Origin: Thermoplasmata archaeon | Lineage (GTDB): Archaea; Thermoplasmatota; Thermoplasmata; Lutacidiplasmatales; UBA184 | NCBI GenBank assembly: GCA_022750125.1 | Contig: JAKIWH010000008.1 | Span: forward strand, 1-38,811 | Length of the DNA: 38,811 bases | Direction of reading: 5' to 3' | Shown here: positions 14,341 through 27,304 of the stretch, piece after piece | Layout of the letters: every line of letters starts with the position of its first letter | How positions within the stretch are numbered: the first letter of the stretch is position 1 | Notes under the pieces: generated by a model | Told to the model about the DNA's origin: nothing | The model's input: only the letters and a program-made list of their open reading frames with translations | Databases searched by the model: none | Made by a program: the position numbers and the translations under genes

Positions 14341-17157
14341 GTGTGGTCCCGAGCGCGCTCGCTCGACCTGCGCGTCCTTCCCGTGCTGCTCCTCCTCCTC
14401 GTCCTACTCCTGCCGGGGCCCGGAGTTGCCACTCCCCCTCCAACCACTGGTCTCGCTCAAGCGGCCGCCACGACCGTCGTGGGCCAGAGCGCGTCACCGT
14501 GCGGCGCGAGCGCTGCGACGTCGTTCTCCGGAACGCTCCGCGAGTACGGGAGCCTGCCTCCTGTCCCGACGGTCGGCTCGGTGACGCTCGAGTACACGTA
14601 CCAGGTCGAGACCACCTTCATCCCCTCGGGCAAGGGCGGAACCCAGGTGACCTGCGCTCCGGCCTCGCAACACGCCACCACGAACGGCACGGGCGGCTTC
14701 TCGCTCAGCGTCGTGCTCCCCACGGGGGGTTGCACGGTCCGCGGCTGCACGTCGTACTCGGGCCCGTTCGGGAGCACCACCTTCACGTCCGTGATTTCAC
14801 CTCCCGCGGGTTACTTCGTCCACGGCAACGTGAGCCAGGGGGTCGCGAACGTTGCGATCGCCGAAGCCTACACGACGCTCGTCGTGAGCCCCCCCGGGCC
14901 GGTCCTCCTCAGCGCGCAGGCTCCGAGCCGGTTCCTCGCGCATCCGCTTGCCGCGGACGGCTCCCCGTCGCCGGTCCCGTTCAGCTTCGCCTGGTCTCTC
15001 GCCACGGCGGGATGGAGCCTGCTCTCCGCACCCTCCGCGTCCTCCGCTCTCGTCGAGGGAGCCGCGGGCGCCGGCCCCGCGCTCCTCGGCCTCGACGTGA
15101 ACGGCTCGTACGGGGGCGTGCCGTTCTCCGGTGTGGTCCACCTCTCCCTTCTCGCGGCCAGCACCACGATCGGCTCGGGGCTCGTCGCGCCGTCGCCCGT
15201 CGACGTGGGCGGGCCGGTCGAGTTCTCGCTCACGGGCGCCGGGGCGCCCGGCTACACCTACACCGCGACGGTGGACCCGGGGAGCGGGCTCGCGCCGCTC
15301 CCCGCGATCTGTACTGCCACCGGAGCCCCCGACGAGGAGCTCTCGATCCGTTGCTCGGCGACCGGCAGCTATGCCCACGCCGGGAGCGAAGAGCCGAGCG
15401 CGACGCTCACGAACGGCTACTCGAACGCCTCGCTCCCCCTCGGCGTGCTTCGGGTGAACCCGACGCTCCTCCTTTCGCTCGCGCCCCGGCCGCTCGCAAC
15501 GTACACGGGAAACCCTCTCCCGCTCTCGGTGACGGTCGCGAACGGCACCGGGAGCGCGCCGTACGGACCCGTGTGCGTCCGCACGGGCGCTGGCATTCCG
15601 CTCTGCTCGAGCGCGCCCGGCCCGAGTTGGTCGTTCGCCGTGCCGTACCCCCGCGCGGGGAGCTACGCGCTCTCGGCGAGCGTGAGCGACGCCGCGAACA
15701 CGACCGGAACGGCGTCGGGCACCGTCGTGGTCGCGAACCGCCCGAGCTTGGGTGACCTCTCCTTCCTGGGCGGGCCCCCGACCCAAGGCGCCTCCCTCGA
15801 CCTCACGTCGATCCTCGCAGGCGGTGTAGCGCCGATCGCCTACTGGTGGAACGCCACGAACCCCGCTGGGACCTTCGGAACTGGAGTGCTCCCGCCCACG
15901 GGGACGGTCGGGGTAACGTTCCGGCCGAGCGAGGCCGGGTGGGTGACGGTGACGCTCACCTGCGTGGATGCGCTCGGAAGCCGCGTCGCGAAGACGCTCA
16001 CCTTCTACATCTCCGCAGGCCCCGCGGTGAACCTCGCGCTCGCGAACGGTTCCACCGTCGTGGCAGCAGGGGAGGCGGGGATCCCGGTCCCCTACTCGAT
16101 CGTCGCGATGTCCCCCGAGAACGAGCGGGTCGCTTCCTACTCGGGATCGCTCACGCTCCTCGTGCGCACACCCTCCGCCGCGGACCCGATGAGCCTCTAT
16201 CTCCCGGCGCTCGCCGAGACGATGCGCCCGCTCGCGGGCGCGTTCGCGCTCTCCTCGAGCGCCTGGTTCGGTGGCTACCTCAACTTCACCCTCGAGCTCG
16301 ACCGTGCGGGAACGTACTGGGTGAGCCTCACCGCGGGGCTCCCGCTCGCCTTTGCAAGCAACGGCACGTTCCGGCTCACGGTGGGGCCGGACCCGTACTC
16401 GCTCGCGCTCACCTCCCCCACCGTGCGGCTCGAGGGCGCTCGCACGAACTCGACCGAGTACCGGCTCGCGGACCGGTTCGGGAACCCCGGCGTTCCGGGC
16501 TCCGTATGGGTCGAGAGCGAGTTCGGCGGCGCGGTCACGAACCGGAGCGCCCCCGTCCTTCCGGACGGGAACGGCTCCGTCGTCTGGGTGAACTACTCCG
16601 CGCCGACCGCGGCCGGTGGCTGGGTGGACGTCTGGAGCTCGCGCGGCGAACGGCTCCTCGGGGCGATCGCCGTTCCGGCGGTGAGCTCGAACTCCGACCC
16701 GACGCTCCCGCTCGCGGTGGGGAGTCTCGTCGGGCTCGTCGCGCTCGGCGGAGGGGTCCTCTGGGTGCGACGGAGCCGGTCGACCCGTCCGCTCGCGGCC
16801 GGCCACGGTTCCGACGAGGTCACCGAGGAGGAGCTCAGGCGCACGGCGGCCGGGCGGGATCGGCTCCTCGAGCGGATCCGCGCGGAGGCGCCGGTCGGAC
16901 TCGAGCCGCTACGAACGGGATGGCCGGACCCGGTCCCCGAGCCGGCCGAGATCGCGGATTGGCTCGCGAGCCTCGTCACCGAGGGGTCGGTGCTCACCAC
17001 CCTCGGGCCGGGAGGTCAACCCGTCTACCGACCCGCGCCCGTCCAGGAGACCCATGTCCCACGAGTGGAGCTCGACGCCGATGCCCTCGAGCGCGCCCTC
17101 GCGGGAGAGGAGGGCTCGGAGGCCGAGGAGCGCGCTGGGCTACCCGACAAGGGCTAG
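14341..17157 (+). CDS. Large secreted/surface protein with Ig-like repeats, C-terminal TM helix and cytoplasmic tail
   Basis: Signal-like LRVLPVLLLLLVLLLPGPGVA; Ser/Thr/Gly-rich beta-type repeats; TM LPLAVGSLVGLVALGGGVLWVRR; about 130-aa charged tail. Confidence 0.75.
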   Translation: MWSRARSLDLRVLPVLLLLLVLLLPGPGVATPPPTTGLAQAAATTVVGQSASPCGASAATSFSGTLREYGSLPPVPTVGSVTLEYTYQVETTFIPSGKGGTQVTCAPASQHATTNGTGGFSLSVVLPTGGCTVRGCTSYSGPFGSTTFTSVISPPAGYFVHGNVSQGVANVAIAEAYTTLVVSPPGPVLLSAQAPSRFLAHPLAADGSPSPVPFSFAWSLATAGWSLLSAPSASSALVEGAAGAGPALLGLDVNGSYGGVPFSGVVHLSLLAASTTIGSGLVAPSPVDVGGPVEFSLTGAGAPGYTYTATVDPGSGLAPLPAICTATGAPDEELSIRCSATGSYAHAGSEEPSATLTNGYSNASLPLGVLRVNPTLLLSLAPRPLATYTGNPLPLSVTVANGTGSAPYGPVCVRTGAGIPLCSSAPGPSWSFAVPYPRAGSYALSASVSDAANTTGTASGTVVVANRPSLGDLSFLGGPPTQGASLDLTSILAGGVAPIAYWWNATNPAGTFGTGVLPPTGTVGVTFRPSEAGWVTVTLTCVDALGSRVAKTLTFYISAGPAVNLALANGSTVVAAGEAGIPVPYSIVAMSPENERVASYSGSLTLLVRTPSAADPMSLYLPALAETMRPLAGAFALSSSAWFGGYLNFTLELDRAGTYWVSLTAGLPLAFASNGTFRLTVGPDPYSLALTSPTVRLEGARTNSTEYRLADRFGNPGVPGSVWVESEFGGAVTNRSAPVLPDGNGSVVWVNYSAPTAAGGWVDVWSSRGERLLGAIAVPAVSSNSDPTLPLAVGSLVGLVALGGGVLWVRRSRSTRPLAAGHGSDEVTEEELRRTAAGRDRLLERIRAEAPVGLEPLRTGWPDPVPEPAEIADWLASLVTEGSVLTTLGPGGQPVYRPAPVQETHVPRVELDADALERALAGEEGSEAEERAGLPDKG

Positions 17158-20119: not shown

Positions 20120-23083
20120 GTGAGGCTTCCGCCCCGGGGCGGAGCGAGGCTCCATCTCCTCCTCCCGCTCCTCTTCCTCCTCCTCGGGGCGCTGCCGGTC
20201 GCCGGCGGCCATCTCGTGAGCGCGGGGGCGCGCCCGGCCGCGGCGCATCCCGGCCTGAGCCTCCCCGCGTCGAGCACACCGCCCCCGGGACCGTTCGATT
20301 GGGCAACGTTCCACGGGGATTCGAACCGCTCGGGGTTCACGAACGTGCGCGGCCCCTCGACCTCCGCCGAGGCGTGGTCCCCGCCGCAGGCAACCCCGCT
20401 TCCGATCCGTGCCGGACCCGTCGTCAACTCGACCCGGATCTACGCGGCCGACATTGTCGGAAACGTGGTCGCGCTGGACCGCGTGGACGGCAAGGTCGCT
20501 TGGCGGACCACCGTGTGGAGCGCGCCGACCACTCCGACGCTCGCCGGGGGACGGCTGTTCCTGGGCTGCGACAACGGCCTTCTCTACGCGCTCAACGCCG
20601 CGAGCGGCGTGCTCCTCTGGACAGCGAACCTGAGCAGCGCGATCCTCCAGGGAACGCTCGACGTCTCGGGAGAGGTGGTGGCGGGGACCGAGGCCGGAGC
20701 GCTGTTCGCGGTGAACGACACGACCGGGCGGATCCTCTGGTCCCGAACGATCGGCGCTCCCCTCGCCGGTGCCCCCGCGGAGGAAGGCGGCATCCTCTAC
20801 GCCGCTGGCAGCGGGGGCCAGCTCCTCGCAGCGACCCTCAACGGCGCCACCGTCTGGACAGAGCGGCTTAGGAACGTATCGCTCGAGGTCGGCTTCTCGG
20901 TCGGCGGCTCGCGGCTCTTCCTCGGCGAGACGAACGGGAACGTGACGGCGCTCTCCGCGGCGAATGGGTCGACGCTGTGGAACTACTCCACGGCGGGCGC
21001 CCCGCTCGAGGGCGCGATCCAGGCGACCCCCGCGACCGACGGTTCCTCGGTGGACTGGATCGACGGTGGCGGTGGGATCTACTCGGTCTACGCCTCGAAC
21101 GGTACACTGCGCTGGCTCTCGAACGCGTCCCAGGTCTCGGCCGGCTACCCGCTCCTCTCGGCCCCCGTCCTCACCCCGTCGGGGTTCTACCTGATCGACG
21201 GCTCCCAGACGCTCGACGACCTGAACCCGGCGACCGGCGCGCTCCGCTGGTCGTACCCGTACGGCGGGCTCACCGTCTACTCCTCCCCGGCGGTGATCGC
21301 GAACGGGCTCGTCATCGGCACCGACGACGGCGTCATCGACTACTTCTCCCCGCCCTCGAGCCTTGCGAGCTGGCCCATTTCGGGGAGTACGGTGGACCCG
21401 AACGGGACACCGCTTGCGAACATCACGGTCGAGCTCGATTCGCGCTTCACCCTCACCGCGCTGGACGGGAGCTTCCTCCTCTACGCCCCCAACGGGAGCT
21501 ACTCGCTGCTCGCGGGCGGTGCCGGCACCGAACCGCTCTCCGTTCCGCTCCTCGTCTCGGGACCGATCTCGGGGCTCCGGCTCGTGCTTCGGCCGCTCGC
21601 GACGTTCCTCGTCTCGGGCCGGCTCCTTGACGACGCTTCGGGACGGGCGATCGCGGGCGCCTCGATCGCCCTCGTCGGTGCTGGAGGATACCAGACGGGA
21701 ACCGTCTCGGCCCCCGACGGAGGCTTCCGCCTCCAGGCACCGAACGGGTCGGACTACCTCTCCGTCGGGGGGCTCGCGGCCTACTACGGCGCTTCCGAGC
21801 ACATCCTCGTCAACGGTACACCGCTCCTCGGGCTACGGGTCGGCCTCACGCCGGTGGGCCTTGGGAGCCCCGGCTTCTTCGACGCGTACGCGCCGTACCT
21901 CGTGCTCGCGGGCCTTGGCATGGGCGCGCTCGTCGCTTGGCTCGCGGAGGTGTCGCGCCGCCGCCGGTCGGTGGGACTCTCGGGCCGCATCCTCTCCCGG
22001 TTCGGTCGGTACGTGCTCATGCGGGCGAGCCTCATGCCCGTGCAGCTCCTCGCGCTGCTCGCGCTCCTCTTCGCGTTCGGGAGCTTTCTTCCCAACGTCG
22101 CGGCGAAGGCGTACGTAGGCGCGGACGCCGGAACGATCCTCAAGGACTTCTTCGAGGGGTACCTCGCGTTCGCCTGGTCGATGGTGAGCGGCGACTGGGG
22201 GTACGCCGCCTACGGGCACCTCTCCGAGCCCGTGACGACCTACATCGCCTGGTGGCTTCCGTACACCCTCGAGCTGATGGGGTTCGCGCTCGTCATCTCC
22301 GCGGCGCTCGGCTACGCGGCGGGCCTGCGCGCCGGCTGGAAGCCGGACGGGCCGTTCGACTTCGGCACGCGCATCGCCTCCCTCGTTGGCCTCCTCGTGC
22401 CGAGCTTCCTCGTGATCCTGCTCGTCCTCGGCGGGACGTACACCTACTTCGTCCACGCCGTCGGGGACACGCCGTACGGGATCCTCCCGAACCTCGCCTG
22501 GTACGATACCCACGGGGGGTTGCCGCCCAGCTGGGTCGGGATCGGGGGCAACACCCTCCCGACGGGGTTCCCGCTCGTCGACGCTGCAGTCCACACGGAC
22601 TGGTCGTTCTTCGTGGTTGTGCTCGCGAAGACGCTCTTCCAGGCGACCCTCATCGCGATCGTCTACGTCGCGATCTTCCTGCGGTACGCTCGCCACTCGG
22701 CCGCCGAGCACGCCCGGGCGCTCTCCGTCGTCGCCGCCCGGTCGCGCGGCGTGCCCGAGGGCCGCCTTCTGTGGTACCACACCGGACGGCGCGCGCTCCC
22801 CGAGTTCGTGCTCCTCTTCGCCATCACCCTGCCCGTCTACATCGGGACGCAGGCGGTCGCGGAGGCGCTGTTCAGTGACCCCGGAGTGGGGAACGTCCTC
22901 CTCACCGAGATGACCCAGGTCGCCTCGAGCGGCTTCGGCATCACCCACGGCCAGGGGTTCGTCGCGGGGAACCTCTACCAGGTGACGATCCTGTTCCTGT
23001 TCCTCGTCGTCCTCGGGGGAAACCTCCTCGCGGACGTTATCGCGCGGTACCTCGATCCCCGGCTCCTCCCCGAGGGCCGGTGA
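20120..23083 (+). CDS. Fusion: signal peptide + PQQ/BamB-like beta-propeller + carboxypeptidase-regulatory-like domains + DppB-type ABC permease
   Basis: Propeller repeats GNVVALDRVDGKVAW, NGLLYALNAASGVLLW, AGALFAVNDTTGRILW, GNVTALSAANGSTLW; then GRLLDDASGRAIAGASI; then a multi-TM permease ending GNLLADVIARYLDPRL. Confidence 0.85.
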   Translation: MRLPPRGGARLHLLLPLLFLLLGALPVAGGHLVSAGARPAAAHPGLSLPASSTPPPGPFDWATFHGDSNRSGFTNVRGPSTSAEAWSPPQATPLPIRAGPVVNSTRIYAADIVGNVVALDRVDGKVAWRTTVWSAPTTPTLAGGRLFLGCDNGLLYALNAASGVLLWTANLSSAILQGTLDVSGEVVAGTEAGALFAVNDTTGRILWSRTIGAPLAGAPAEEGGILYAAGSGGQLLAATLNGATVWTERLRNVSLEVGFSVGGSRLFLGETNGNVTALSAANGSTLWNYSTAGAPLEGAIQATPATDGSSVDWIDGGGGIYSVYASNGTLRWLSNASQVSAGYPLLSAPVLTPSGFYLIDGSQTLDDLNPATGALRWSYPYGGLTVYSSPAVIANGLVIGTDDGVIDYFSPPSSLASWPISGSTVDPNGTPLANITVELDSRFTLTALDGSFLLYAPNGSYSLLAGGAGTEPLSVPLLVSGPISGLRLVLRPLATFLVSGRLLDDASGRAIAGASIALVGAGGYQTGTVSAPDGGFRLQAPNGSDYLSVGGLAAYYGASEHILVNGTPLLGLRVGLTPVGLGSPGFFDAYAPYLVLAGLGMGALVAWLAEVSRRRRSVGLSGRILSRFGRYVLMRASLMPVQLLALLALLFAFGSFLPNVAAKAYVGADAGTILKDFFEGYLAFAWSMVSGDWGYAAYGHLSEPVTTYIAWWLPYTLELMGFALVISAALGYAAGLRAGWKPDGPFDFGTRIASLVGLLVPSFLVILLVLGGTYTYFVHAVGDTPYGILPNLAWYDTHGGLPPSWVGIGGNTLPTGFPLVDAAVHTDWSFFVVVLAKTLFQATLIAIVYVAIFLRYARHSAAEHARALSVVAARSRGVPEGRLLWYHTGRRALPEFVLLFAITLPVYIGTQAVAEALFSDPGVGNVLLTEMTQVASSGFGITHGQGFVAGNLYQVTILFLFLVVLGGNLLADVIARYLDPRLLPEGR

Positions 23084-24087
23084 CGGCACTCGCGGAGCTG
23101 GCGGAACCGTGGGAGGAGGAGGCGCTCCACGCGCTCCGTGCGGAACGGACGCCCGTGCGACGGCTTCTCCGCTCGCTCGCACGGAACCCCTCCCTCCTCA
23201 CGGGCGTCTCGATCCTCGGTGCGTACGCGGCGCTCGGGCTCCTCGCGTGGATCCAGTACGGGAACGGCGTGGGCGTGCTGCCGCTCTCCTACACCTGGGC
23301 GCAGGCGCTCACGCCGCCGGGCCCCACCTACGCGCACCCGTTCGGGATCATGAACGTGCTCGGGATCGATGTCGCGGACGCACTCTACGAATCGATCCCG
23401 TGGGACCTAGCGATCCTGGGGAGCATCCTCGGGATCGCGGTCGCGCTCGGTACCGTTGCGGGCGCCTGGGCGGGGTACGCCCGGGGCCCGATCGACTGGG
23501 TGGTGACGAGCCTCGTCGACCTGCTGCTCTCGGTTCCCCCGTTCTTCCTCGTCATCGTCCTGTTCGTCGGTCTCTACAACTTCGTCCCGATCGGGTACAC
23601 CCTCGTCCTGTTCGTGCTGCTGTTCGCGATCGTGCTCTGGCCGTACTACGCCCGGCCGGTCCGGTCCCGGGCCGAGTCGGTCACCGCGGAGCCGTACGTC
23701 GAGGCCGCGCGGGCCGCAGGGGGGAGCCGCGCGCGGATCCTCGCCCGGCATATCCTGCCGAATTCGCTCGACCCGGTCTTCGCGCAAATCCCGATCGACG
23801 TCTACCAGGTGTTCTTCGTGCTCACGGTCTTCCCGTTCCTCGGCTGCTGGGCCCAGGGCGCGCCCGGCCACTCCTTCGCCTGGGTCACGCCGCTCCCCTC
23901 CGCCGCCTTCCCCGAATGGGGGAACCTCCTCGCCCAGGGCGTCTGCTACGGGCTCCAGCCGGCGGGTTCGATCAACTTCTGGTGGATGTACACTTTCCCG
24001 GCGCTCGTTCTCATCCTGTTCGGGGTCGCGGTGGCCCTCACTACGGACGGGCTCTCCGCGGTCTTCCAACCCCGGGTGGCCCGGTGA
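23080..24087 (+). CDS. ABC transporter permease, DppC/OppC-like (copy 1)
   Basis: N-terminal TM, DLAILGSILGIAVALGTVAGAWAGYARG, EPYVEAARAAGGSRARILARHILPNSLDPV EAA loop; GTGA overlap with the preceding gene. Confidence 0.9.
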   Translation: MTALAELAEPWEEEALHALRAERTPVRRLLRSLARNPSLLTGVSILGAYAALGLLAWIQYGNGVGVLPLSYTWAQALTPPGPTYAHPFGIMNVLGIDVADALYESIPWDLAILGSILGIAVALGTVAGAWAGYARGPIDWVVTSLVDLLLSVPPFFLVIVLFVGLYNFVPIGYTLVLFVLLFAIVLWPYYARPVRSRAESVTAEPYVEAARAAGGSRARILARHILPNSLDPVFAQIPIDVYQVFFVLTVFPFLGCWAQGAPGHSFAWVTPLPSAAFPEWGNLLAQGVCYGLQPAGSINFWWMYTFPALVLILFGVAVALTTDGLSAVFQPRVAR

Positions 24088-24134: not shown

Positions 24135-25145
24135 TTGCCGACGTGGGTGCCGCCGCCGAGCGGACCGACCGAGGAGGAGCCCGACCCGTGGGAACCCTCC
24201 GTGTTCGCGCGGCTCGCGCGCGGCCACGGTCCCTTCCGCCGCCTTCTGCGGGCGCTCGTGCGGACCCCGACGCTCCTCGCCGGGCTGGGTCTCCTCCTTT
24301 TCTTCGGAGTCCTCGCCCTCGCCTCGCTCGCGCTCGACGGGGGCAGCAGCTCCCTCGTCGTGCACTTCGACTGGGCTGCGAACCCGTTCCCGCCCGGACC
24401 TTCCCGCGCCCACCCGTTCGGCGTAATGGATGGGCTGGGGGTGGACGTCGCCCAGGCGCTCTTCCTCGCGGTCCCGTGGGACCTCGCGATCTTGGGTTCC
24501 ATCCTAGGGCTCGCGGCGGTCGGTGGGGTCCTCGCGGGAGCGTGCGCCGGCTTCTTCCGCGGCCCGTTCGACTGGGTCGTGACGAGCCTCGTCGACTTGC
24601 TGCTCGCCGTTCCCCCGTTCTTTCTCGTCGTCGTGCTCTACCTCGGAGTGGTCCTCTACTTCCCGATCGACGAGCACCTCCCCCTCTTCGTGGCGCTCTT
24701 CGGGTTCGTCCTGTGGCCGTACTACGCGCGCCCCGTCCGGGCGCGCGCCCAGTCGATCGCCGCGGAGCCCTACGTCGAAGCGGCCCGGGCGAGCGGCTCC
24801 CCGCCGAGCCGCATCCTCCTCCGGCACGTGATCCCGAACTCGCTCGGCCCCGCCTTCGCGCAGCTGCCGATCGACGTCTACCAGGTGTTCTTCGTCCTCA
24901 CCGTCTTCCCGTTCCTCGCCTGCTACAACGCGACCTCGCTCCTCTCGCCGCTCCCCTCCCCGCAGTTCCCCGAGTGGGGGAACCTGCTCGCGCTCGGGGT
25001 CTGCTTCGGTTGGTCGCCGCTCGCCGCGGTGAACTTCTGGTGGATGTACGCCTTTCCCGCCCTCACCGTCATCGCCTTCGGGATCGGGGTCGCCCTCCTC
25101 TCGGACGGCGCGAGCTCGATCCTCGAGGCGAAGCTCCGCGTCTAG
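24135..25145 (+). CDS. ABC transporter permease, DppC/OppC-like (copy 2)
   Basis: DLAILGSILGLAAVGGVLAGACAGFFRGPFDWVVTSLVDLLLAVPPFFLV, EPYVEAARASGSPPSRILLRHVIPNSLGPAFAQLPIDVYQVFFVLTVFPFL; TTG start. Confidence 0.9.
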   Translation: MPTWVPPPSGPTEEEPDPWEPSVFARLARGHGPFRRLLRALVRTPTLLAGLGLLLFFGVLALASLALDGGSSSLVVHFDWAANPFPPGPSRAHPFGVMDGLGVDVAQALFLAVPWDLAILGSILGLAAVGGVLAGACAGFFRGPFDWVVTSLVDLLLAVPPFFLVVVLYLGVVLYFPIDEHLPLFVALFGFVLWPYYARPVRARAQSIAAEPYVEAARASGSPPSRILLRHVIPNSLGPAFAQLPIDVYQVFFVLTVFPFLACYNATSLLSPLPSPQFPEWGNLLALGVCFGWSPLAAVNFWWMYAFPALTVIAFGIGVALLSDGASSILEAKLRV

Positions 25146-27304
25146 CGGATGTGGTCGAGCGAGAAGGAGCCAAGCGAGAACGACTTCTTCGTGAAGGTGT
25201 AGCCGACCCAGGCTCGGGACTGGACGTCGGTCACGCCGCGCACGGAAAGGAAGGTCTTGAGTTGGTCCACCTTGAGGTTCAGCGAGCCGTCCACCATGTG
25301 CTCGAGCGTCTGCAGGTCCGCCTCCGAGTGCATGCCGGTCTCGATCTCGTAGTACCCCGACGCCCCGTCGAGCTTCCGGCGGCCCACGAGCGGCTGGAGG
25401 ACGCGGAACGCCTGGGTGCTGTCGAGGTAGGCGGTCACGGTCGAGACGCTCTCGAACAGGAACCGGTACCCGCCCGCCCGCTCCTTGAGCTCGGCCGCGA
25501 ACCCGTTCACCGCCTGGGGAAGCTGGTCCAGGAGCCCCTTGTCCGTCGAGGAGAGGAGCTTCACGCCCTTCTCGGCCTCGGTGACCCCGAGGCTCCGGGA
25601 GTACAGGTCGACGTACCGGACGAGCCCGCGCCGCTCGAGCTCGGTGTAGTTCGGAAGGAGCGCCTGCATCTCCTCCCGCAGGATCGTGTAGGTGCGGTCG
25701 GTGACGACGAGGAGCGCGCCCTGGCCCTGCTTGAGCCCCTCGATGAGGAAGAACCGGCCGAGGAGGTCCTTGCCCGTGTGCGCGGGCCCGTTCACGAGCA
25801 CCTGGCTCCCCGGCGGAAGCCCGCCAAAGAGGAGGTCGTCGAGACGGCGCACGCCGGTGCGGACCTTCGCGGTGTGCGCGGCGACCGCCTCGACCGCATC
25901 CGCCTGCATCTGGTCCGCCTCCTGCTCCGCCGCCTTCTTCTCGAGACCCTCGAGCTCGTGCACCCGCTGCAGGAGGAACGCCTCGCGGGTGCGGAGCTCC
26001 TCCTCCCGCTTGCGTAGCTCGTCCGCACGGTCCTCGAGCCGCGTCGACTCGACGCTCGCGGCCGGGCCGGTCGGAAGGTTCGCGCGCAGCTCCTCCAGGC
26101 GACGCGCCTCCGCCTCGAGCGTGCGCTGCTTGAGCGCGAGCTCAGATTCGCGCGTGCCGAGCTCCCGCTCCTTGTAGGCGAGCGGCTCCCGCTTCCGGTC
26201 GATATCCTCGGCGCGGATCCGGATCTCCTCGAACCGGGCGCGGAGCTCGTTCTCGCGGCGGACGATCTCCTTTTCCCGTTCGTCGGCGCTCGGCATCCCC
26301 TCGGGAGTGCCGCGGCGCGACTCCGCCTCCGACCGGGCGGTGCGCAACTCCCCTTCGAGCGCTACGACGCGACGGCGGAGCTCCGCCTCGCGCGTCAAGA
26401 TCTCCTCCTCACGTGCGGCGTACTCGCCCTTGAGCCGCGCCTCGAGCGCGGGAAGCCCCTCGGCGCCCGTCGGACCTACCTGGTTCGCGTTCAACCGGCC
26501 CGCAAGCTCCTCGAGCTTCTTGCGCAGGATCTGGAGCTCCGCGTCCTTCTCCTCGACGAGCTCCTCGCGGGCCTTCGCCTCGCGGGTACGAACGTACTTG
26601 ATGACGGCGATCGAGCCGCGCTTCACGTGCTCGAGCTCCTCCTCGATCACGCGCCGGCGCTCCCGCTCGTCGAACAGCTCCCGCTGCGCCTCCTGGAACT
26701 CCTGGAGGATCGAGGCCGGGTCGAACGTCTCGTTCTTCACGCGGTCCAGGAGGTCGGTGAGCCAGCGGACCACCGTCTCCTCCCGCTCGAGGAGCTTCGC
26801 CGGGAGCGCCTCGCCGCCTCCGCCGATCGCGGGGGCGGGCGATGGCGCAGTGAGGTCGGATCCCGTGGACGGTTCTTCGGGGGCGGGAGCGGGGAGGAGC
26901 GACGATCCGCCATCCTCCGACTGCTTGATCCAGCTCTCGAGCGCCCGGTCGTCGCCGCCGATCCACCGCTTCATGACCTCCGTCGAGCCGCCGGGGGTCG
27001 AGCGCAACTTCCTCTTGCCGCGCTCCGGGCGGCGGGCGGTTCGCATCCACTTGTCAACGGTCTCGCCGTCCTCGGAAGGGGTCGCGGTGTGCCGCTCGGC
27101 GTGAAGGCGGCTCACCTCGTCCGCGGAAAGGCCCGCGTCGAGGAGCACGGCGTCGGGGGCGGTGCGTGCCTGCTCGGCGGTGATGAAGCCCGCGCTCACG
27201 AGGGCGCGCGCCACCCCGACGTCGATCGCTAGCGCCCGGGCGAGGGCGTCGGCGGGCTCCTCCGGCTCGGTGGCCGGGATGACCGCCTCGGCAGGCTGCC
27301 CCAT
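25142..27304 (-). CDS. Long coiled-coil protein with C-terminal KaiC/RadA-like ATPase domain
   Basis: N-terminal HhH/SAP-like repeats, long heptad-rich Glu/Arg region, then VRTGVRRLDDLLFGGLPPGSQVLVNGPAHTGKDLLGRFFLIEGLKQGQGALLVVTDRT; ATG at 27304 with GTTTAAG box upstream. Confidence 0.8.
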   Translation of the reverse strand: MGQPAEAVIPATEPEEPADALARALAIDVGVARALVSAGFITAEQARTAPDAVLLDAGLSADEVSRLHAERHTATPSEDGETVDKWMRTARRPERGKRKLRSTPGGSTEVMKRWIGGDDRALESWIKQSEDGGSSLLPAPAPEEPSTGSDLTAPSPAPAIGGGGEALPAKLLEREETVVRWLTDLLDRVKNETFDPASILQEFQEAQRELFDERERRRVIEEELEHVKRGSIAVIKYVRTREAKAREELVEEKDAELQILRKKLEELAGRLNANQVGPTGAEGLPALEARLKGEYAAREEEILTREAELRRRVVALEGELRTARSEAESRRGTPEGMPSADEREKEIVRRENELRARFEEIRIRAEDIDRKREPLAYKERELGTRESELALKQRTLEAEARRLEELRANLPTGPAASVESTRLEDRADELRKREEELRTREAFLLQRVHELEGLEKKAAEQEADQMQADAVEAVAAHTAKVRTGVRRLDDLLFGGLPPGSQVLVNGPAHTGKDLLGRFFLIEGLKQGQGALLVVTDRTYTILREEMQALLPNYTELERRGLVRYVDLYSRSLGVTEAEKGVKLLSSTDKGLLDQLPQAVNGFAAELKERAGGYRFLFESVSTVTAYLDSTQAFRVLQPLVGRRKLDGASGYYEIETGMHSEADLQTLEHMVDGSLNLKVDQLKTFLSVRGVTDVQSRAWVGYTFTKKSFSLGSFSLDHIR

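Follow-up and report, generated by a model that had tools for sequence, protein, structure and literature searches.

The window, a 38,811-nucleotide stretch of archaeal DNA, contains an open reading frame of 987 aa with a GTG start and zero internal stops, in which a predicted outside part, consisting of a beta-propeller and two Ig-like domains, is joined through an additional transmembrane (TM) helix to a DppB-type permease (Table 1). The stop of this frame overlaps the start of a gene for a DppC-type permease, which is followed by a second DppC gene, its product being 57% identical to the first. According to the hydropathy profile, a signal-like segment (aa 11-29) and the single TM helix (aa 594-612) precede the permease helices, the single helix being directly followed by a basic cytoplasmic stretch, SRRRRSVG. 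This is the layout proposed in the initial annotation, and both hydropathy and the HMM domain scan suggested there bore it out, as PQQ_2, two stretches of CarboxypepD_reg and BPD_transp_1 all scored above the curated Pfam cut-offs. NCBIfam models for BamB and for Opp2B/NikB/DppB also match the fusion, with scores below the equivalog cut-offs: the best of the DppB-type models, Opp2B, gave 78 bits against a cut-off of 350, and the canonical DppB of the same genome is likewise under the NCBIfam cut-off (189 bits). The permease part matches the solved DppB structures 8wd9 and 8z1v with E-values from 6e-8 to 9e-8. An AlphaFold2 model built from two sequences had a pLDDT of 30 and a pTM of 0.23, values too low for use.

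Table 1. Features of the fusion gene and of the adjacent permease genes in the window
Feature	Position	Strand	Basis
Propeller-CarboxypepD_reg-TM-DppB fusion, whole ORF, 987 aa	20120..23083	+	ORF call, Pfam, full-length homologues
Signal-peptide-like N-terminus, aa 1-43, hydrophobic 11-29	20120..20248	+	Hydropathy; end point approximate
BamB/PQQ-like beta-propeller, aa 59-415	20294..21364	+	PQQ_2 2.6e-34 (aa 152-379, above curated cut-off); BamB structures; W-motif spacing
Two CarboxypepD_reg (Ig-like) spacer domains, aa 416-585	21365..21874	+	PF13620 1e-12, two stretches, above curated cut-off
Extra TM helix joining outside domains to permease, aa 594-612	21899..21955	+	Hydropathy
DppB-type permease, aa 628-987	22001..23080	+	BPD_transp_1 2.3e-14 (aa 731-982, above curated cut-off); solved DppB structures
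Shortened TM1-TM2 outside loop, 34 aa to GDWG; place of the scoop region in canonical DppB	22091..22192	+	Loop comparison; scoop function per PMC12136057
EAA-type coupling helix region, VAARSRGVPEGRLLWYHTGRRALP, aa 863-898	22706..22813	+	Sequence comparison
DppC-type permease 1	23080..24087	+	BPD_transp_1 5.9e-21, above cut-off; EAA loop EPYVEAARAAG
DppC-type permease 2	24135..25145	+	BPD_transp_1 1.5e-17, above cut-off

The propeller has seven W-docking repeats spaced 39-45 aa apart and an N-terminal W at position 86, and from this spacing it is predicted to be eight-bladed and of the BamB type. Among natural proteins, the family profile matched solved BamB structures best (E-values of about 1e-46 to 1e-33; 2.4e-46 for 8orr). 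The fusion thus has the propeller fold family in common with BamB and PQQ-like proteins; BamB itself, however, is a free-standing lipoprotein of outer-membrane assembly, whereas here the propeller is part of an archaeal ABC permease. A vicinal cysteine pair at the cofactor is a mark of the methanol-dehydrogenase-type quinoproteins. Binding of PQQ by the propeller was considered and judged unlikely, since the whole fusion protein has a single cysteine (C150) and hence no vicinal pair; a PQQ site of the methanol-dehydrogenase type is therefore improbable, and "PQQ" is used below as a family name only.

Conservation of the fusion and the wider permease family

Full-length open fusions were found in the same genus with 87, 68 and 45% identity (G001, G003 and G004, respectively), and twice in one genome of another genus of the family (G024, 40-43%). 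A homologue with 87% protein identity is encoded on a contig of SubAcS15-67 (L033), which is included in the genome table of Lutacidiplasmatales, acidophilic soil archaea of Thermoplasmatota (PMC9287336). The search of related archaea for the same architecture, suggested in the initial annotation, was extended by locus reading and yielded 21 PQQ-propeller/DppB fusions, that of the window counted, spread over 16 genomes from a single archaeal family. The genomes compared were metagenome-assembled ones of about 57-100% completeness, and genes in the loci read were called by a simple codon-usage script. Most PQQ fusions share one site in both genera, with the gene order SHMT - thioesterase - [fusion - DppC] - KaiC-like - TyrRS, while several genomes have a second copy at another conserved site. 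The DppC partner is kept in the operon with the fusion in the loci read; a second DppC occurs, among the PQQ loci read, in the genome of the window (G000), G001 and G003 only. An assembly chimera, named earlier as an outcome that would refute the fusion, is excluded by the occurrence of the same fusion in many independent assemblies with matching neighbours. In comparison with G001, dN/dS was lowest in the permease (0.08), higher in the propeller (0.13) and highest in the CarboxypepD_reg part (0.31), indicating that the fusions evolve under purifying selection.

Among the neighbours, the KaiC-like/DUF7504 protein gene (25142-27304, minus strand) was found downstream of fusion loci of the window type in almost every genome read, and a gene for a secreted 938-aa protein (14341-17157, plus strand) beside that of SHMT is kept in both PQQ-fusion genera. 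The latter was considered as a candidate protease and rejected, its only match being a marginal one to PKD. Attempts to read function from SHMT, thioesterase, MOSC, KaiC-like and TyrRS neighbours were also abandoned: synteny is kept, and no pathway link was found.

A second architecture was traced from permease matches in ORFs of roughly 780-1400 aa, with the N-terminal domains (PQQ or Kelch) assigned by profile searches: a Kelch propeller is followed by between one and three PKD domains, a TM helix and a related permease. About 21 such fusions were found in 12 genomes, all of one family. In G006 the DppC is fused as well, forming one Kelch-PKD-DppB-DppC chain of 1301 aa (L040:8145-12050, plus strand); a second such chain is encoded in the same genome (L041:1-3600, plus strand). 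Two or three DppC genes may follow a single Kelch-DppB fusion (L050:6131-9375, L140:6294-8326, L141:7147-9247), much as two follow the fusion of the window, and it is possible that one fused DppB has several DppC partners.

The third set comprises about 15 orphan permeases with no fused propeller, the outside module thus being not obligatory for the clade. Just upstream of one of them, a separate YVTN-propeller gene with a C-terminal hydrophobic stretch is located (L099:12926-14113; TIGR02276 over the cut-off). Homologues always encoded as two separate genes, the other refuting outcome named earlier, were not the pattern: most are fused, and a separate propeller gene occurs in this one case. 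A protease may also be found as a fusion partner: in G258, a thermopsin (PF05317, 1.4e-35) is placed N-terminally on the partner DppC adjoining an orphan DppB (L098:3573-7427, minus strand, 1284 aa), and thermopsins also flank the B'C' genes.

The permease profile at E <= 1e-50 matched 17 of the 390 genomes of the phylum, all belonging to one family, the canonical DppB of that family being included in these matches. A tree was built for 70 permease domains, along with a quick tree of 73 rows. The orphan permease clade and the family's canonical DppB are separated with support of 100/100, and the PQQ fusions all lie on one side of a single branch (92/93), that is, they form one clade as judged from the permease sequences. 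The distribution of Kelch fusions requires two changes on the tree. The architecture labels are far more clustered than after shuffling.

Scoop region, binding proteins and ATPases

In E. coli, a scoop motif between TM1 and TM2 of DppB docks the binding protein DppA, the EAA helices of the translocator touch the ATPases, and DppBCDF becomes active only upon the joint binding of loaded DppA and ATP (PMC12136057). The outside TM1-TM2 loop is 51-87 aa long in 14 canonical DppB of the family, as opposed to a median of 28 aa in the Kelch-type and unfused members of the orphan clade and 34 aa in the window; it reaches up to 53 aa in other PQQ fusions, those of g5 having a longer loop, often with Cys. 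The LGLDxP-like motif is present in 8 of the 14 canonical rows vs. 0 of the 59 orphan rows. As judged from these comparisons, the orphan clade has lost the scoop region that docks the binding protein. Both the B subunits inspected and all 16 orphan-type DppC compared retain the EAA coupling segment; the BPD_transp_1 pair of B and C type and the EAA helices in both permeases are features in common with the Opp/Dpp-type (type I) ABC importers.

No SBP_bac_5 gene was found beside the fusions at the loci read, a cognate binding protein being absent from the operon, and the fusion chain has no classical substrate-binding protein (SBP) fold, its outside part consisting of the propeller and Ig-like domains only. 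SBP_bac_5 genes are present elsewhere in the genome of the window, where PKD-SBP_bac_5 proteins are encoded on other contigs. The binding proteins of the canonical system of this genome are unusually large, 1018-1019 aa (L058:3090-6146, plus strand; L059:2353-5412, minus strand); the former comprises PKD and a weak SBP_bac_5 match, and the latter is alike in length and layout.

Similarly, no DppD/DppF or other ATPase genes were found beside the fusions at the loci read. The genome of the window has canonical dpp genes on other contigs and two oligo_HPY ATPase hits, the counts here and below covering ATPases with the oligo_HPY domain only. One oligo_HPY ATPase pair each was found in G001, G004, G006, G011, G013, G016 and G022, despite one to four fusions apiece (four in G011, three in G016); G003 has one hit, and most g5 genomes checked have four, i.e., two DppD/F pairs. 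In three genomes, unfused orphan B'C' genes are located directly downstream of the canonical dpp ATPase genes (L097:2568-9303, L100:3281-10071, L133:879-4192). Sharing of ATPases is known for other ABC importers (PMC4519317).

Possible mechanism and relation to known importers

The loss of the scoop region, the retained coupling helices, the lack of adjacent ATPase and SBP_bac_5 genes, the small number of ATPase pairs and the location of orphan B'C' genes behind dpp ATPases together suggest an ATP-driven Opp/Dpp-type translocator that borrows DppD/DppF and in which a tethered outside module replaces the mobile binding protein; we put the probability of this reading at about 0.45. Supported by its Ig-like spacers and the additional TM helix, the propeller would sit above the channel mouth, where it could raise the local capture of a ligand, either short peptides or a protein or protease releasing them. 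DppB would pair with DppC1 or DppC2, the shared DppD/DppF ATPases of the genome would bind the coupling helices, and peptides would be imported. The Kelch-PKD, YVTN and thermopsin versions could then be different capture modules carried by one chassis. Weighing against this reading are the orphan permeases that have no fused propeller, the two DppD/F pairs in most g5 genomes checked and the longer loop of the g5 PQQ members. The initial annotation had proposed a built-in receptor or docking platform; this idea has gained from the several propeller types on one clade, the scoop loss, the kept coupling helices and the lack of an adjacent binding protein, its ligand binding and transport parts being putative.

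In G011 and G016, pro-kumamolisin genes are oriented divergently from the Kelch fusion. Since thermopsins are widespread in the family (94 of 103 genomes), their presence in the neighbourhood is weak evidence, with only the thermopsin fusion being strong. Lutacidiplasmatales have been reported to possess acid peptidases (PMC9287336). Our best guess from these gene contexts is that the cargo could be peptides released by secreted acid proteases and then imported.

Other explanations can be weighed against the tethered-module importer. Beta-propellers and PKD or CarboxypepD_reg domains are common in archaeal surface proteins, and the propeller, instead of binding the substrate, might attach to a surface, to the S-layer or to a secreted enzyme, the permease then working on substrate released nearby; the swapping of unrelated propellers and the thermopsin at the equivalent place on the partner subunit would suit such a bring-it-close role. 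We consider this docking or adhesion platform rather unlikely, given the strong purifying selection on the propeller (dN/dS of 0.13) and the scoop loss, which a pure adhesin leaves unexplained. The divergent sequence and NCBIfam matches below the equivalog cut-offs could be expected of a surface propeller anchored by a decayed, non-transporting permease, but the permease is the most constrained part of the protein (0.08), its coupling motifs are intact in B and C, and the DppC partner is retained in the operon at the fusion loci read, which leaves such a relic a very slim chance.

The lost scoop region and the lack of an adjacent binding protein would also be consistent with export, the propeller then being an outside acceptor or scaffold. 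The model for this is SapBCDF, an Opp/Dpp-type translocator reported as a putrescine exporter and named without the binding protein SapA in that role (PMC12772348). The fusion does match the SapB model weakly, but the scores are far under the cut-off and under those of Opp2B, and the protease links suggest uptake of digestion products. Moreover, SapBCDF has no outside domain, and an exporter appears improbable. SapBCDF also differs in having dedicated ATPases and in belonging to a different family. Even less credible is a transporter still served by an SBP_bac_5 protein encoded elsewhere, with the propeller as an accessory: the PKD-SBP_bac_5 proteins on other contigs of the genome would be available for it, but the shortened scoop region and the LGLDxP-like motif missing from every orphan row argue against docking, while the canonical DppB of the family keep the long loop.

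Returning to the importer with a tethered module, its locus shares with the DppABCDF and OppABCDF importers (PDB 8z1v, 8wd9) the DppB and DppC types, the coupling helices and the B-C operon order. It differs from them in the lack of an adjacent SBP or ATPase gene, the shortened scoop, the N-terminal propeller with an extra TM helix, and, sometimes, two or three DppC. A capture domain covalently joined to the translocator is also a feature of GlnPQ and OpuA; in those importers a classical SBP is fused to a permease of a different family, whereas the DppB/DppC chassis of the fusion family carries a beta-propeller unrelated to it, or a protease. Since SBPs fused to a transport domain are already known from OpuA and GlnPQ (PMC8276074), the covalent attachment of a capture domain has precedents among importers. 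What is, to our knowledge, undescribed is a scoop-less Opp/Dpp chassis with a beta-propeller or protease at this position: the literature searched contained no relevant propeller-permease fusion and the libraries searched no family with this layout, in agreement with the earlier remark that none was known.

It is possible, although this is a more tentative proposal, that these proteins represent a separate class of SBP-independent Opp/Dpp-type importers, so far confined to one archaeal family, with exchangeable tethered modules (PQQ, Kelch-PKD, YVTN, thermopsin), shared ATPases, and peptide capture or even hydrolysis coupled to uptake. Since Opp/Dpp importers are considered to require a binding protein, a scoop-less lineage with a propeller or protease would demonstrate another way to load and trigger the channel, and would make the necessity of the SBP testable. 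Acidophilic soil archaea that secrete acid proteases may in this way keep the products from competitors, and the arrangement is possibly a novel mode of nutrient capture at the cell membrane.

In two genomes, a PNGase-A-like secreted protein (PF12222, 4.3e-9, as scored on the L135 copy) is encoded divergently to unfused orphan B'C' genes (L134:9387-11150 and L135:4316-6079).
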